Source: Halosimplex rubrum
GTDB lineage: Archaea; Halobacteriota; Halobacteria; Halobacteriales; Haloarculaceae
Reading direction: 5' to 3'
Assembly: GCF_013415885.1 (NCBI RefSeq)
Contig: NZ_CP058910.1
Span: forward strand, 3,782,001-3,846,000
DNA length: 64,000 nucleotides
The notes under the pieces are model-generated. The model was not told the DNA's origin and did not search any database. It worked only from the letters and a program-made list of their open reading frames with translations. Made by a program: the position numbers and the translations under genes. This document shows positions 7,962-12,626 of the stretch, one piece after another. Each line of letters opens with the position of its first letter. Position 1 is the stretch's first letter.

Positions 7962-9803
7962 TCACTCGACGAAGACGGTCCCGTCGGGCTCGACGTGTCC
8001 GTCGGTCCCGGTCGGGTACCACCGGTCGCGCTCCCGGTTCGCCGGCTGTCCGCCCCCGTTCCGCCCGATCGTGACGGTCGGGCCGCGGACCAGCAGTTCC
8101 CCGTCGTCGGTGTTGGCGATCTCGATCCCGCTCGTCGGACGCCCGGCCGCGCCGTCGACCGAGGTTTCGGGAGCGGCCAGCGCGCCGACGCCGGCGGTCC
8201 CGACCGTTCCGTAGAGGTTCCGGACCGGGACGCCGACCCCCGCGAACAGGTACAGGAGGTGGGCGTCCAGTCGGCCGGTCCCACAGAGGGCGTACTCCAG
8301 GTCCGCGAGCCCGAACGCCTCGCGGAGCGGCCCGTAGACGAGCCGGTCGGCGGCGGCGTACTTCAGCGGCGTCCCGCCGCCGTCGAGCCGGTCGCGGCCG
8401 TACGACGCGACGCGGCCGGCGACCTTCCGCTTCATCCAGTTCATCGACCCGATGCGGTCCTGCAGGGCGCCGTAGAGCCGCTGGTAGACCGCCGGAGCGC
8501 CGACGAGGACCGACGGGCTGGCGGCCGCGAGGCTATCGACGAACCCGTCGGACCCGGCGTAGGCGACGGCCCCGCCCGTCGACCAGAGGTAGTACGTCGC
8601 GACGCGCTGGTAGGCGTGCGCGAGCGGGAGGAAACACGTGCCGGTCGCGCCGGGGTCGAGCGGCAAGTCCGTCTCCAGCGTCGCCGCCCCGGCGAGGAGC
8701 GCGCGGTGGGTGAGCGCGCGCCCCGTGGGGTCCGTCGCGGCGGGGTCGAACACGACGGTCGCCACGTCGCGCCCGTCGGCTTCGAGCCCCGGCAGTTCGT
8801 CCGGTCGTGCGGTCGGGAGGGCGTCGATATCGAACCGAACGTCCACGCCGGACAGCTCCGCGTCGACGACTCCGTCCCCCGCCACGAGGCCCGACAGGTC
8901 GATGCGGTCGACGGCCCGACGGGTCTGCTCGGCGGTGAACGAGGGGTACAGCGGAACCGAGACGAGGCCGGCGAACTGGCAGGCGAGGTCGACGACCGAC
9001 CACTCGTAGCTGGACGCCGCCGCGACGGCGACCCGGTCGCCCGGTGCGAGCCCCGATTCCAGCAGACCCGCGGCGACGCCGCGGGCGCGCACGGCGAGGT
9101 CCTCGAACGTCCGCTCGTCGTACCCCTCGGCCGTCGGGACGAGCGCGGCCGGGCGGTCGCCGTGGGCCGCCACGACCAACTCGAACCAGTCTGCGACGGA
9201 CCCGTCGGGTACGTCGAGGGGCCCGCCGTCGGCGACCGGGCCCGCGGGCGAGACGTCCGCGGTGGGTTCGGTGTGGTCGGTGGTGGGTTCCCCGGTCGAC
9301 CGGTCGGCCGCCGCGGAGCCCCGTTCCTGTCGGAGCGCGCCGGGGCTGTACTCGTAGCCGTCGGCGACCTCCGACTCGAAGTAGTCGGCGTAGTTCTGGT
9401 CCTCGTCGAGGGCGGCGATGTGGGCGTCGAGCCAGTCGCGGAGGAACGTCAGCACCTCCATCGTGACGTACTCGCCGTTCTCGTGTTTCTCGCGGAACTC
9501 GGCGACCCTGGCGGCGAACTCCTCGTGCATCTCGCGGTGGTCGTAGAAGCAGTCGGCGCAGTCCATCGCGTACCCGCAGTCCTGCATGAACTCCTCCTCG
9601 TCGCCGAAGTGGTACTCCGTGTAGCGTTCGAGTTCCCGGAGGATGTCGCCGATCTCCGCCTCGGAGTGGCCCTCCTCCATGGCCGTGTGGAGGTCGTTGA
9701 GCAGTCCGAACAGGCGCTTGTGTTGCTCGTCGAACCGCTCGATGTGCGTGCTGTAGCGCTCGTCGTCCCAGTCGGCGAACCGCTCGTCCGAGCCCGCTTG
9801 CAT
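7962..9803 (-). CDS. Hemerythrin domain fused to a degenerate, truncated acyl-CoA ligase (AMP-binding) domain
   Basis: A 613-residue two-part protein. Residues 10-142 form a complete bacteriohemerythrin: the diiron ligands H28, H65, E69, H89, H93, H128 and D133 are all in place. A linker rich in Thr, Pro and acidic residues follows (about 143-205). Residues 206-613 resemble a long-chain fatty acyl-CoA ligase (LPLAHAYQRVATYYLW, GAPAVYQRLYGALQDRIG, DDGELLVRGPTV). Its catalytic motifs are lost: the P-loop reads VVFDPAATDPTGRALTH in place of a Ser/Thr/Gly-rich loop, the YGxTE motif reads YGTVGTA, TGD reads TGTDG, and the protein stops before the C-terminal subdomain with its lysine. I infer an oxygen- or redox-sensing protein with a binding-only ligase domain. 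The start at 9803 is chosen over an in-frame one 69 bases upstream because it fits the TATA box. Confidence 0.85.
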   Translation of the reverse strand: MQAGSDERFADWDDERYSTHIERFDEQHKRLFGLLNDLHTAMEEGHSEAEIGDILRELERYTEYHFGDEEEFMQDCGYAMDCADCFYDHREMHEEFAARVAEFREKHENGEYVTMEVLTFLRDWLDAHIAALDEDQNYADYFESEVADGYEYSPGALRQERGSAAADRSTGEPTTDHTEPTADVSPAGPVADGGPLDVPDGSVADWFELVVAAHGDRPAALVPTAEGYDERTFEDLAVRARGVAAGLLESGLAPGDRVAVAAASSYEWSVVDLACQFAGLVSVPLYPSFTAEQTRRAVDRIDLSGLVAGDGVVDAELSGVDVRFDIDALPTARPDELPGLEADGRDVATVVFDPAATDPTGRALTHRALLAGAATLETDLPLDPGATGTCFLPLAHAYQRVATYYLWSTGGAVAYAGSDGFVDSLAAASPSVLVGAPAVYQRLYGALQDRIGSMNWMKRKVAGRVASYGRDRLDGGGTPLKYAAADRLVYGPLREAFGLADLEYALCGTGRLDAHLLYLFAGVGVPVRNLYGTVGTAGVGALAAPETSVDGAAGRPTSGIEIANTDDGELLVRGPTVTIGRNGGGQPANRERDRWYPTGTDGHVEPDGTVFVE

Positions 9804-9836: not shown

Positions 9837-9869
9837 GGGTCCCGTTCCCGGTCGCTGGGAACGGGACCC
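9837..9869. promoter_or_regulatory. Perfect 13-bp inverted repeat between two divergent promoters (operator candidate)
   Basis: GGGTCCCGTTCCC at 9837-9849 and GGGAACGGGACCC at 9857-9869 are exact reverse complements with a 7-base spacer. The repeat fills the space between the leftward and rightward TATA boxes, where the BRE elements of both promoters would lie. A bound dimeric regulator could therefore control both genes; this role is inferred. A shorter inverted repeat, GGTCG-TAC-CGACC, lies at 9807-9819. Confidence 0.6.
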
Positions 9870-10530: not shown

Positions 10531-11544
10531 ATGACGCAGGTACTCTCCACGACGCCCGGCCTGTATCCGTTGCCGGACTGGGCGAAAGACGAACTCGCGA
10601 ACCTGAAGGGACGACAGAAGGGCGGGCTGGTCTCGGGCGACGAGAGCGCCGAGATCGGCGACGCCTACGACCGAGCGCGGACGGAGGTCGTCGACCTCCA
10701 GACCGACGCCGGCCTCGACCTGGTCGTCGAGGGCCAGCTGCGGTGGGACGACATGCTCACTCACCCGCTCGCCGTCGCCGACGCCGTCGAGACCAAGGGG
10801 ATCGTCCGCTACTTCGACAACAACAACTTCTACCGCGATCCGGTGGTGACTGGCGACCTCTCTGCCACGGGCGACGTGGCGACCGATCTCGAAGCGACCG
10901 TCGAGCTCACGGACGAGTCGCTCAACGCCGTCCTGCCGGGGCCGTACACCCTCTCGCAGCTCGCGACCGACGAGCACTACGGCGACGAGGCCGCCTTCCT
11001 CTCGGCGCTGGCCGAGTTCCTCGCGAGCGAGGCCGAGCAGTTCCCGGAAGTCGAGACGCTGTTCCTGCTGGAACCCTCGCTGCTGGAGTCGCCGCCCGGC
11101 GACGGCGCCGACGAGCGCGCCAGCGAGGCGATCGATACCGTGGCACAGGCCACCGAGGCCGACGTGGTCGCCCACACCTACTGGGAGTCCCACGGCGGCG
11201 ACGGCGGCATCGACGAGAAGGTGTACGCCCACCTCATGGACGCCGACGTCGACGCGGTCGGTTTCGACTTCGTCGCCAACCACGAGGACAACGCCTACGT
11301 CCTCTCCGAGTACGGCGCCAAAGACGACATCGCGCTGGGCATCGTCGACGGGCAGAACACCCTCGTCGAGGAGGGCGAGGAGATCGCCGAGCGCGTCGAG
11401 TGGACGCTCGACAACGCCCACGGCGTCGACTTCGAGACCGCCTACGCGACGATCAACACGCCGACGTTCTACCTGCCCTCGGGCCGCTTCGAGGAGAAGC
11501 TCGCGGCGCTTGGCGCCGTCGAGCGCACGGAGGTGAAAGCATGA
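10531..11544 (+). CDS. MetE-type methionine synthase, N-terminal-like partner (no zinc ligands)
   Basis: A 337-residue TIM-barrel protein of the cobalamin-independent methionine synthase superfamily (TTPGLYPLPDWAKDELANLK, LVVEGQLRWDDMLTHP, VLPGPYTLSQLA). It lacks the catalytic zinc ligands: where active members have HxC, a glutamate and a late Cys (DCGL), it has AHTYWE, FDFVANH and NTPTFYLP. It thus corresponds to the non-catalytic N-terminal half of bacterial MetE. The stop overlaps the start of the second half by four bases. I infer that the pair forms one functional methionine synthase, with this protein helping bind the methyl donor. Confidence 0.8.
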   Translation: MTQVLSTTPGLYPLPDWAKDELANLKGRQKGGLVSGDESAEIGDAYDRARTEVVDLQTDAGLDLVVEGQLRWDDMLTHPLAVADAVETKGIVRYFDNNNFYRDPVVTGDLSATGDVATDLEATVELTDESLNAVLPGPYTLSQLATDEHYGDEAAFLSALAEFLASEAEQFPEVETLFLLEPSLLESPPGDGADERASEAIDTVAQATEADVVAHTYWESHGGDGGIDEKVYAHLMDADVDAVGFDFVANHEDNAYVLSEYGAKDDIALGIVDGQNTLVEEGEEIAERVEWTLDNAHGVDFETAYATINTPTFYLPSGRFEEKLAALGAVERTEVKA

Positions 11545-12626
11545 CTGAGCGCCCCGCCGACAACCGCGAGCAGTTCCGCCCGGCCGACCACGATAACGAC
11601 CACTTCCTGCTGACCTCGGTCGTCGGCAGCTACAAGAAGCCCAAGTGGCTCGACCGCGCCCGCGAGCTCTACGAGGACGACGAGGACAACTTCGGCGACA
11701 CGGAGTGGGAGGAAGCGAAGGACGACGCCGCTCGCCTCATCACCGAGGAACACGAGCGCGCGGGCCTCGACACCGTCGTCGACGGCGAGATGCGCCGGAC
11801 GGAGATGGTCGAGTACTTCGCCGAGCGCATCGAGGGCTACGAGTTCAACGGCCGCGTGAAGGTCTGGGGCCACAACTACTTCAACAAGCCCAGCGTCGCC
11901 GAAACCGTCGAGTACGGCGAGCAGTGGCTCGTCGACGAGTTCGAGTTCACCGACTCGGTGGCCGACCGCCCGGTCAAGGTGCCCATCACCGGCCCGTACA
12001 CGCTGGCCAACTGGACGTTCAACGAGGCCTACGACGACGACGAAGCGCTGGCCTACGACCTGGCCGAGCTGGTCAACGAGGAGATCGAGCAGCTCGTCGA
12101 CGCCGGCGCCCGCTACATCCAGATCGACGAGCCCGCGCTCGCCACGACGCCCGACGACCACGCCATCGTCGGCGAGTGTCTCGAACGCATCGTCGAGGAC
12201 ATCCCCGAGGAGGTCCGCATCGGTCTCCACGTCTGTTACGGCGACTACTCGCGGATCTACCCCGAGGTGCTCGACTACCCGGTCGACGAGCTCGACCTGG
12301 AGCTCACCAACGGTGACTACGAACAGATCGACGTGTTCACAGACCCCGAGTTCACCCTCGACCTCGCCCTGGGCGTCGTCGACAACCACACTGCCGACGT
12401 CGAGTCCGTCGAGGAGATCAAGGCCAACATCCAGCAGGGCCTGAAGGTCGTCCCGCCGGAACAGCTGACCATCTCCCCGGACTGCGGCCTGAAGCTCCTC
12501 CCGCGGGAAGTGGCCTACGAGAAAATGGAGAACATGGTCACCGCGGCCCGCGAGGTCGAGGCCGAACTCGACGCCGGCGAGATCGACGTGCCCGCGCTCG
12601 GGGAAACCGCCTCCGCCGACGACTGA
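11541..12626 (+). CDS. metE: MetE-type methionine synthase, catalytic (C-terminal-like) subunit
   Basis: A 361-residue catalytic barrel that transfers a methyl group to homocysteine to make methionine. Zinc ligands are present: HVCYGDY supplies His and Cys, LELTNGD the Glu, and SPDCGLKLLP the last Cys. The homocysteine/methyl pocket motifs ITGPYTLANWTFNE and QIDEPALATTP are also clear. The start is the ATG overlapping the stop of the partner gene. The methyl donor (folate analogue or methylcobalamin protein) cannot be read from sequence. Confidence 0.9.
   Translation: MTERPADNREQFRPADHDNDHFLLTSVVGSYKKPKWLDRARELYEDDEDNFGDTEWEEAKDDAARLITEEHERAGLDTVVDGEMRRTEMVEYFAERIEGYEFNGRVKVWGHNYFNKPSVAETVEYGEQWLVDEFEFTDSVADRPVKVPITGPYTLANWTFNEAYDDDEALAYDLAELVNEEIEQLVDAGARYIQIDEPALATTPDDHAIVGECLERIVEDIPEEVRIGLHVCYGDYSRIYPEVLDYPVDELDLELTNGDYEQIDVFTDPEFTLDLALGVVDNHTADVESVEEIKANIQQGLKVVPPEQLTISPDCGLKLLPREVAYEKMENMVTAAREVEAELDAGEIDVPALGETASADD

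Follow-up and report, generated by a model that had tools for sequence, protein, structure and literature searches.

The gene at 7962–9803 of the window (the whole 64,000 nt stretch of the Halosimplex rubrum genome analysed here) encodes a bacteriohemerythrin (Hr) and, after it, the large N-terminal domain of an ANL-fold acyl-CoA ligase. Judged by its sequence, the ligase half is catalytically dead. The two-domain architecture, a ligase fold that is preserved but stripped of its catalytic parts, purifying selection, a palindromic operator and a PPOX-fold partner gene can each be read from the DNA and its homologues. With regard to function, we give about an even chance to the reading that the product is a non-enzymatic member of a low-oxygen regulon, a hemerythrin joined to a pseudo-ligase, which would serve as an O2- or NO-responsive sensor or buffer of micro-oxic respiration and not as an acyl-CoA ligase.

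Both the coordinates and the combination of hemerythrin with an acyl-CoA-ligase-like domain that the initial annotation had proposed are borne out, the latter by Pfam, NCBIfam and predicted models. The gene is read on the minus strand, from an ATG at 9803 to a stop at 7962–7964, as a single frame of 613 residues that is open throughout and is backed by orthologues. The Pfam Hemerythrin model matches residues 20–131 (46.3 bits, above its cut-off) and AMP-binding (PF00501) matches residues 209–578 (118.8 bits against a cut-off of 29.9); these are the only Pfam domains in the protein, with no MCP, GGDEF or kinase output domain present. The two halves are connected by a linker (residues 144–199; 9207–9374, minus strand) of low complexity and poor conservation, in which pLDDT is low at residues 144–181 and dN/dS reaches 0.80. 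The host genome, of 4.48 Mb, forms one contig, and an orthologue of the fusion that is 80 % identical is present in Halosimplex pelagicum. A family-wide search finds the fusion in 35 of 146 genomes, and it is because the identical architecture recurs in this way that chance is excluded, and that an assembly join or a frameshift, a prospect raised by the initial annotation, is ruled out as an explanation, its probability being practically nil. Named records, such as those of Haloarcula marismortui (WP_049938576.1) and H. hispanica (WP_014031271.1), show this architecture as well, and across the six genera in which the gene is conserved dN/dS stays far below 1.

Alignment of 36 distinct fused sequences covers six genera of the Haloarculaceae, namely Halosimplex, Haloarcula, Halorientalis, Halomicrobium, Salinibaculum, Halovenus and relatives; outside of the family, no fused homologues were found among 392 genomes of the order and 393 of the phylum. 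Fused sequences make up a single clade in the ANL tree (SH-aLRT 99) and likewise in the Hr tree (SH-aLRT 99), and on this ground they probably derive from a single fusion event. The closest relatives of the fused ANL domains are haloarchaeal full-length ligases (e.g. L063 and L065–L070), and the six nearest unfused examples (L063, L065 and L067–L070) keep the P-loop motif, YGATE, TGD and the C-terminal domain. We envisage an origin in which a haloarchaeal oxygen-type hemerythrin became fused, once, to a long-chain acyl-CoA ligase; the ligase would have lost first the C-terminal domain and subsequently the ATP site.

Purifying selection is apparent in every pair of sequences tested, with dN/dS of 0.03–0.11 for the Hr part and 0.09–0.43 for the ANL part. 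For the latter, values of 0.09–0.13 are obtained in Haloarcula, whilst within Halosimplex the Hr and ANL parts stand at 96 and 78 % identity, and at dN/dS of 0.11 and 0.43, respectively, such that the ANL half may be only loosely constrained in Halosimplex. None of the main copies contains a stop. One genome (G011) carries a second copy of the fusion (L072) that is frameshifted within the ligase part, with residues 1–498 lying in one frame and 499–611 in another.

The ANL half, as delimited by Pfam and the predicted model, spans residues 200–613 (7965–9206, minus strand) and is without the C-terminal domain. Alignment reveals degeneration of its hallmark motifs, all on the minus strand: the A3 P-loop at residues 352–361 (8721–8750) reads FDPAATDPTG in place of YTSGTTGxPKG, A5 at residues 531–535 (8199–8213) reads YGTVG in place of YGxTE, and A7 at residues 598–601 (8001–8012) reads TGTD in place of TGD. 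In all 36 fused sequences, this one included, the chain stops at the A8 hinge, and both the C-terminal domain and the catalytic Lys are missing. In a column test, P-loop positions T353, S354 and K360 are retained in 0 % of every clade; the ATP-site columns are retained at 31–63 %, as opposed to 70–84 % for other enzyme-invariant columns. The initial annotation had described a ligase rendered catalytically dead by alteration of the P-loop, YGxTE and TGD motifs (the last being TGT here) and by absence of the C-terminal catalytic subdomain. Each of these points holds in the sequences, the losses are shared amongst the homologues, and no fused homologue within the 36 has an intact P-loop or C-terminal domain. 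Supply of the missing domain in trans was considered and is ruled out: no free-standing AMP-binding_C gene is found in the genome, where all six matches sit within open frames of 681–921 aa.

The extent of erosion beyond the P-loop differs by clade. Homologues from Halovenus and Salinibaculum largely keep A5 and A7, along with part of the loop; in Haloarcula and Halosimplex all three are mostly lost, and the adenine-site motifs are eroded too. The C-terminal domain and the P-loop chemistry were thus probably lost at, or soon after, the fusion, and the adenine-site residues later, since Halovenus and Salinibaculum still retain much of A5 and A7 and Haloarcula and Halosimplex do not. In most clades the A4 region is well preserved, H396 and R400 included.

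AlphaFold2 supports both halves of the protein, modelling the ANL N-domain with confidence and its junction to Hr with low confidence. The ANL model aligns to the N-domain of Mycobacterium tuberculosis FACL13 (3t5c) over 356 residues, with a VIA-align Z of 42.8 and an rmsd of 2.1. The ANL half shares the N-domain fold of the long-chain acyl-CoA synthetases (PF00501; FACL13/FadD13) over its whole length, but differs from them in being without the P-loop, the C-terminal domain and the catalytic Lys, and in the erosion, to a varying extent, of A5 and A7. Ligand binding without a C-terminal domain is possible in principle, because there are crystal structures of isolated ANL N-domains with a ligand bound, as for the PqsA N-domain alone with anthraniloyl-AMP (5oe3). 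Of the lipid or nucleotide sensing, or scaffolding, under oxygen or redox control that the initial annotation had proposed for the dead domain, nucleotide sensing appears unlikely in Haloarcula and Halosimplex, given the erosion of adenine-site motifs that survive in Halovenus and Salinibaculum; with the nucleotide site so degraded, an acyl group or a protein would be the likelier ligand in Haloarcula and Halosimplex.

The bacteriohemerythrin domain occupies residues 9–143 (9375–9779, minus strand; Pfam and NCBIfam), and scores 114.3 against the NCBIfam bact_hemeryth model (NF033749; cut-off 84) and 97.5 against TIGR02481 (cut-off 51.75). Its AlphaFold2 model superimposes on the Methylococcus capsulatus hemerythrin 4xpw with a TM of 0.77/0.87 and an rmsd of 1.7. 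Of the seven iron ligands named in the initial annotation, H28, H65, E69, H89, H93 and H128 stand, being invariant in 36/36 fused homologues, but the seventh is probably D135 and not D133 as first assigned. D135 is likewise invariant in all 36 and falls, in the alignment, at the position of the canonical ligand Asp in methanogen Hrs, whereas D133 varies, being Asn in five homologues, and it is on these grounds that D135 is preferred. Although D133 would give the canonical spacing of four residues between His and Asp, it is not conserved; six residues separate H128 and D135.

This altered spacing reflects one of two insertions that set haloarchaeal Hrs apart from methanogen Hrs of the same phylum, with 2 residues added between the last ligand His and the Asp. 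The other insertion, of 5 residues, lies in the B–C loop, just before H89 and H93, and falls within a cysteine triad, C76-x5-C82-x2-C85 (9549–9578, minus strand; from alignment), located beside these two ligands. All three cysteines are invariant, both across the 36 fused sequences and across the complete single-domain relatives from haloarchaea, and are absent from the methanogen Hrs. The Hr half thus has in common with bacteriohemerythrin (NF033749; M. capsulatus McHr, PDB 4xpx) the four-helix fold, the seven iron ligands and a score above the curated cut-off. It differs from McHr-type proteins in the 2-residue insertion before the ligand Asp and in the 5-residue insertion that puts C-x5-C-x2-C beside H89 and H93, and the fusion protein further adds the ANL N-domain.

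Upstream of the fusion gene, and between it and the divergent PPOX gene, lies a palindromic operator, GTTCCCAGCGACCGGGAAC (9844–9862, minus strand). Its centre lies 50 bp ahead of the ATG, a spacing seen in nearly all loci, and the full inverted repeat covers 9837–9869. It is the sole match in the window, where 0.01 are expected. The operator consensus is GTTYYCA-N4-TGRGAAC, and the pattern TTYTCA-N6-GRGAAY was drawn from 18 loci together with the window itself. Within the first set of loci this pattern is found at −57 to −61 in 22 of 23, and three of the four loci that lay outside the derivation of the pattern match. In loci tested afterwards, several of them in genomes new to the analysis, it is present at −58 or −59 in 9/9.

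Genome-wide, the relaxed pattern TTYYCA-N6-GRGAAY yields 10–23 matches per genome, compared with 0–2 for a reversed control, in the eight genomes scanned, all of which carry the fusion (G000, G018, G037, G059, G078, G093, G100 and G141). Amongst 92 operator sites examined, 25 gene starts lie 44–60 bp away, set against 0.8 % for random positions. Recurrent targets comprise the blue-copper halocyanin, a multicopper oxidase and DmsR_N/HTH_10 regulators (NarO/DmsR type), as well as DoxX, a radical-SAM pair, an AhbA/B-like siroheme decarboxylase, NosL, MoaA, Usp and MCP genes. In the genome from which the window derives, an operator at 671,171 lies between a true NirK gene (above the TIGR02376 cut-off) and a halocyanin gene, and NirK is present in 32/35 genomes with the fusion compared with 50/111 of the others (p 5e-7). 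The operator-linked multicopper oxidases were themselves considered as NirK, an assignment that was rejected, the one tested scoring far below the Cu_nitrite_red cut-off.

It is from the annotation of the genes beside its sites that the operator takes its low-oxygen meaning, and because the fusion promoter carries an element that recurs by nirK, halocyanin, NosL and regulator genes, the fusion gene probably belongs to a low-oxygen/denitrification regulon. The link to oxygen that the initial annotation had drawn from the hemerythrin is hence strengthened by independent means. The targets overlap in kind with those of the haloarchaeal denitrification regulon governed by NarO/DmsR-type regulators (nirK, halocyanin, NosL and DmsR_N–HTH_10 regulators), but the operator itself differs in sequence from the denitrification motif described in the literature for Haloferax mediterranei, CGAAYATDKTYG. 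As separate observations, the operator regulon comprises approximately 10–20 sites in each genome, situated near genes for denitrification and low-oxygen life, and, in several genera, genes for a candidate peptide of the Htur_1727 family and for radical-SAM/pseudo-SAM proteins (TIGR04347 and TIGR04053) also lie under the operator (L159, L169, L181 and L195).

The divergent neighbour across the operator, a PPOX-fold gene of the split-barrel family (Pyridox_ox_2, PF12900; 9906–10331, plus strand; Pfam 60.4 bits), is the only one conserved across genera, other recurrent neighbours being conserved essentially inside Haloarcula. A close orthologue, adjacent and divergent, is present in 28/35 fusion genomes, and the 111 others have no orthologue at all (Fisher 8e-24, with the threshold chosen after the matches had been seen, and with genomes that are not independent and uncorrected for relatedness). 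Of the seven fusion genomes without a PPOX orthologue, five (G011, G012, G015, G023 and G028) fall within a single subclade of the tree. Comparison of the fusion loci across genera turned up no conserved catabolic gene, and a conserved catabolic operon is ruled out, PPOX being the only cross-genus neighbour. In a Haloarcula genome, a second operator match lies just past the PPOX gene (G037:C2:270089-270106; L177). In Halosimplex loci, two tandem cobalamin-independent methionine synthase-like genes adjoin PPOX (10531–12626 of the window, plus strand).

In the same clade of haloarchaeal Hrs, single-domain members adjoin a HemAT-type globin/MCP aerotaxis gene in 9 of the 11 loci examined (L078, L079, L082, L083, L084, L086, L087, L088 and L090), and at least two single-domain loci (L086 and L087) display a full operator match at −59 to −61. 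Through these HemAT-type neighbours and operators, the haloarchaeal Hr clade is tied by context to oxygen signalling, independently of the fusion.

In the favoured low-oxygen reading, the gene would be induced when oxygen is scarce or when the cell denitrifies, and the di-iron centre of its product would bind O2 or NO. The cysteine triad may have a redox or metal-binding role, perhaps joining in a relay of the state of Hr, which might then be passed to the ANL N-domain, acting as a non-catalytic module for ligand binding or docking; the PPOX flavoprotein could re-reduce Hr or be its partner. A more specific version, which we put forward tentatively and consider rather less probable, is that the dead ligase serves an O2/NO-sensing Hr as its receiver or as the half that binds a ligand, and that together with a dedicated PPOX protein it would form a new archaeal gas-sensing module coupling O2 or NO to acyl or nucleotide status at the switch to denitrification.

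The main rival, which we regard as somewhat unlikely, is that Hr works alone as an O2/NO buffer or scavenger in denitrification and low-oxygen respiration, with the ANL domain a passive scaffold for oligomerisation or solubility that binds nothing. The far greater conservation of Hr than of ANL (most evident within Halosimplex) is in keeping with this, as are the variation of ANL pocket motifs between clades and the existence of single-domain Hr relatives, at least two of which have the operator. Against it, every fused lineage has kept the ANL domain with its fold intact, the enzyme-invariant columns that are not catalytic remain 70–84 % conserved, and ANL is closely constrained in Haloarcula. 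We also consider it improbable that the ANL half is in decay, a remnant retained alongside a useful Hr gene: the ATP-site motifs are indeed progressively lost from Halovenus to Haloarcula, and the second copy in G011 is frameshifted, yet purifying selection acts on ANL in all pairs tested, the main copies are without stops, and one clade has persisted through six genera.

It is slightly more improbable again, in our estimation, that the protein is an enzyme of altered chemistry, in which the ANL N-domain would hold a substrate, for example an acyl or aryl compound, that the di-iron site of Hr, reduced by PPOX, would oxygenate or reduce. The co-occurrence of a di-iron protein with an acyl-pocket fold, next to a gene of flavin type, would suit such an enzyme, as would the well-kept A4 region with H396 and R400 in most clades. 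However, the seven Hr ligands are those of an O2 carrier and not of a carboxylate-rich oxygenase, the weakly conserved linker and low-confidence junction give no hint of a shared active site, and the loci harbour no conserved catabolic neighbour.

The claim of the initial annotation that no system with this architecture had been described is not quite right. A hemerythrin survey from 2016 (PMC4919030) lists proteins with an O2-binding Hr and an AMP-binding domain in passing, the same Pfam domain pair as here, which its text ascribes to archaea, Methanococci; in that text the entry comes without analysis of sequences, remark on lost catalysis or named haloarchaea. According to the survey, annotated domains in such long Hr proteins most often point to signalling. 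The fusion likewise resembles the known hemerythrin sensor fusions (Hr with MCP, GGDEF or kinase domains, e.g. DcrH) in joining an oxygen-type Hr to a second domain in one chain, but that second domain is a dead metabolic enzyme and not a known signalling output, a pseudoenzyme being an unusual partner for a hemerythrin. A literature search on haloarchaeal hemerythrins or ANL pseudoenzymes returned nothing specific and no study of the fusion protein, and the RefSeq-derived NCBI label of the Haloarcula homologues (WP_049938576.1 and WP_014031271.1) is simply 'bacteriohemerythrin'. The three invariant cysteines seen in the alignment by the di-iron ligands, the operator identified at the fusion promoter and the pairing with the PPOX gene are new observations.

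Should the proposed role be true, the fusion would represent a new type of output or receiver for hemerythrin sensors, and would provide a clear example of an ANL pseudoenzyme incorporated into gas sensing. The unstudied 'bacteriohemerythrin' of Haloarcula marismortui and H. hispanica (gene HAH_RS18715 in the latter) would, moreover, fall within the low-oxygen regulon of denitrifying haloarchaea, to which the operator offers a direct handle.
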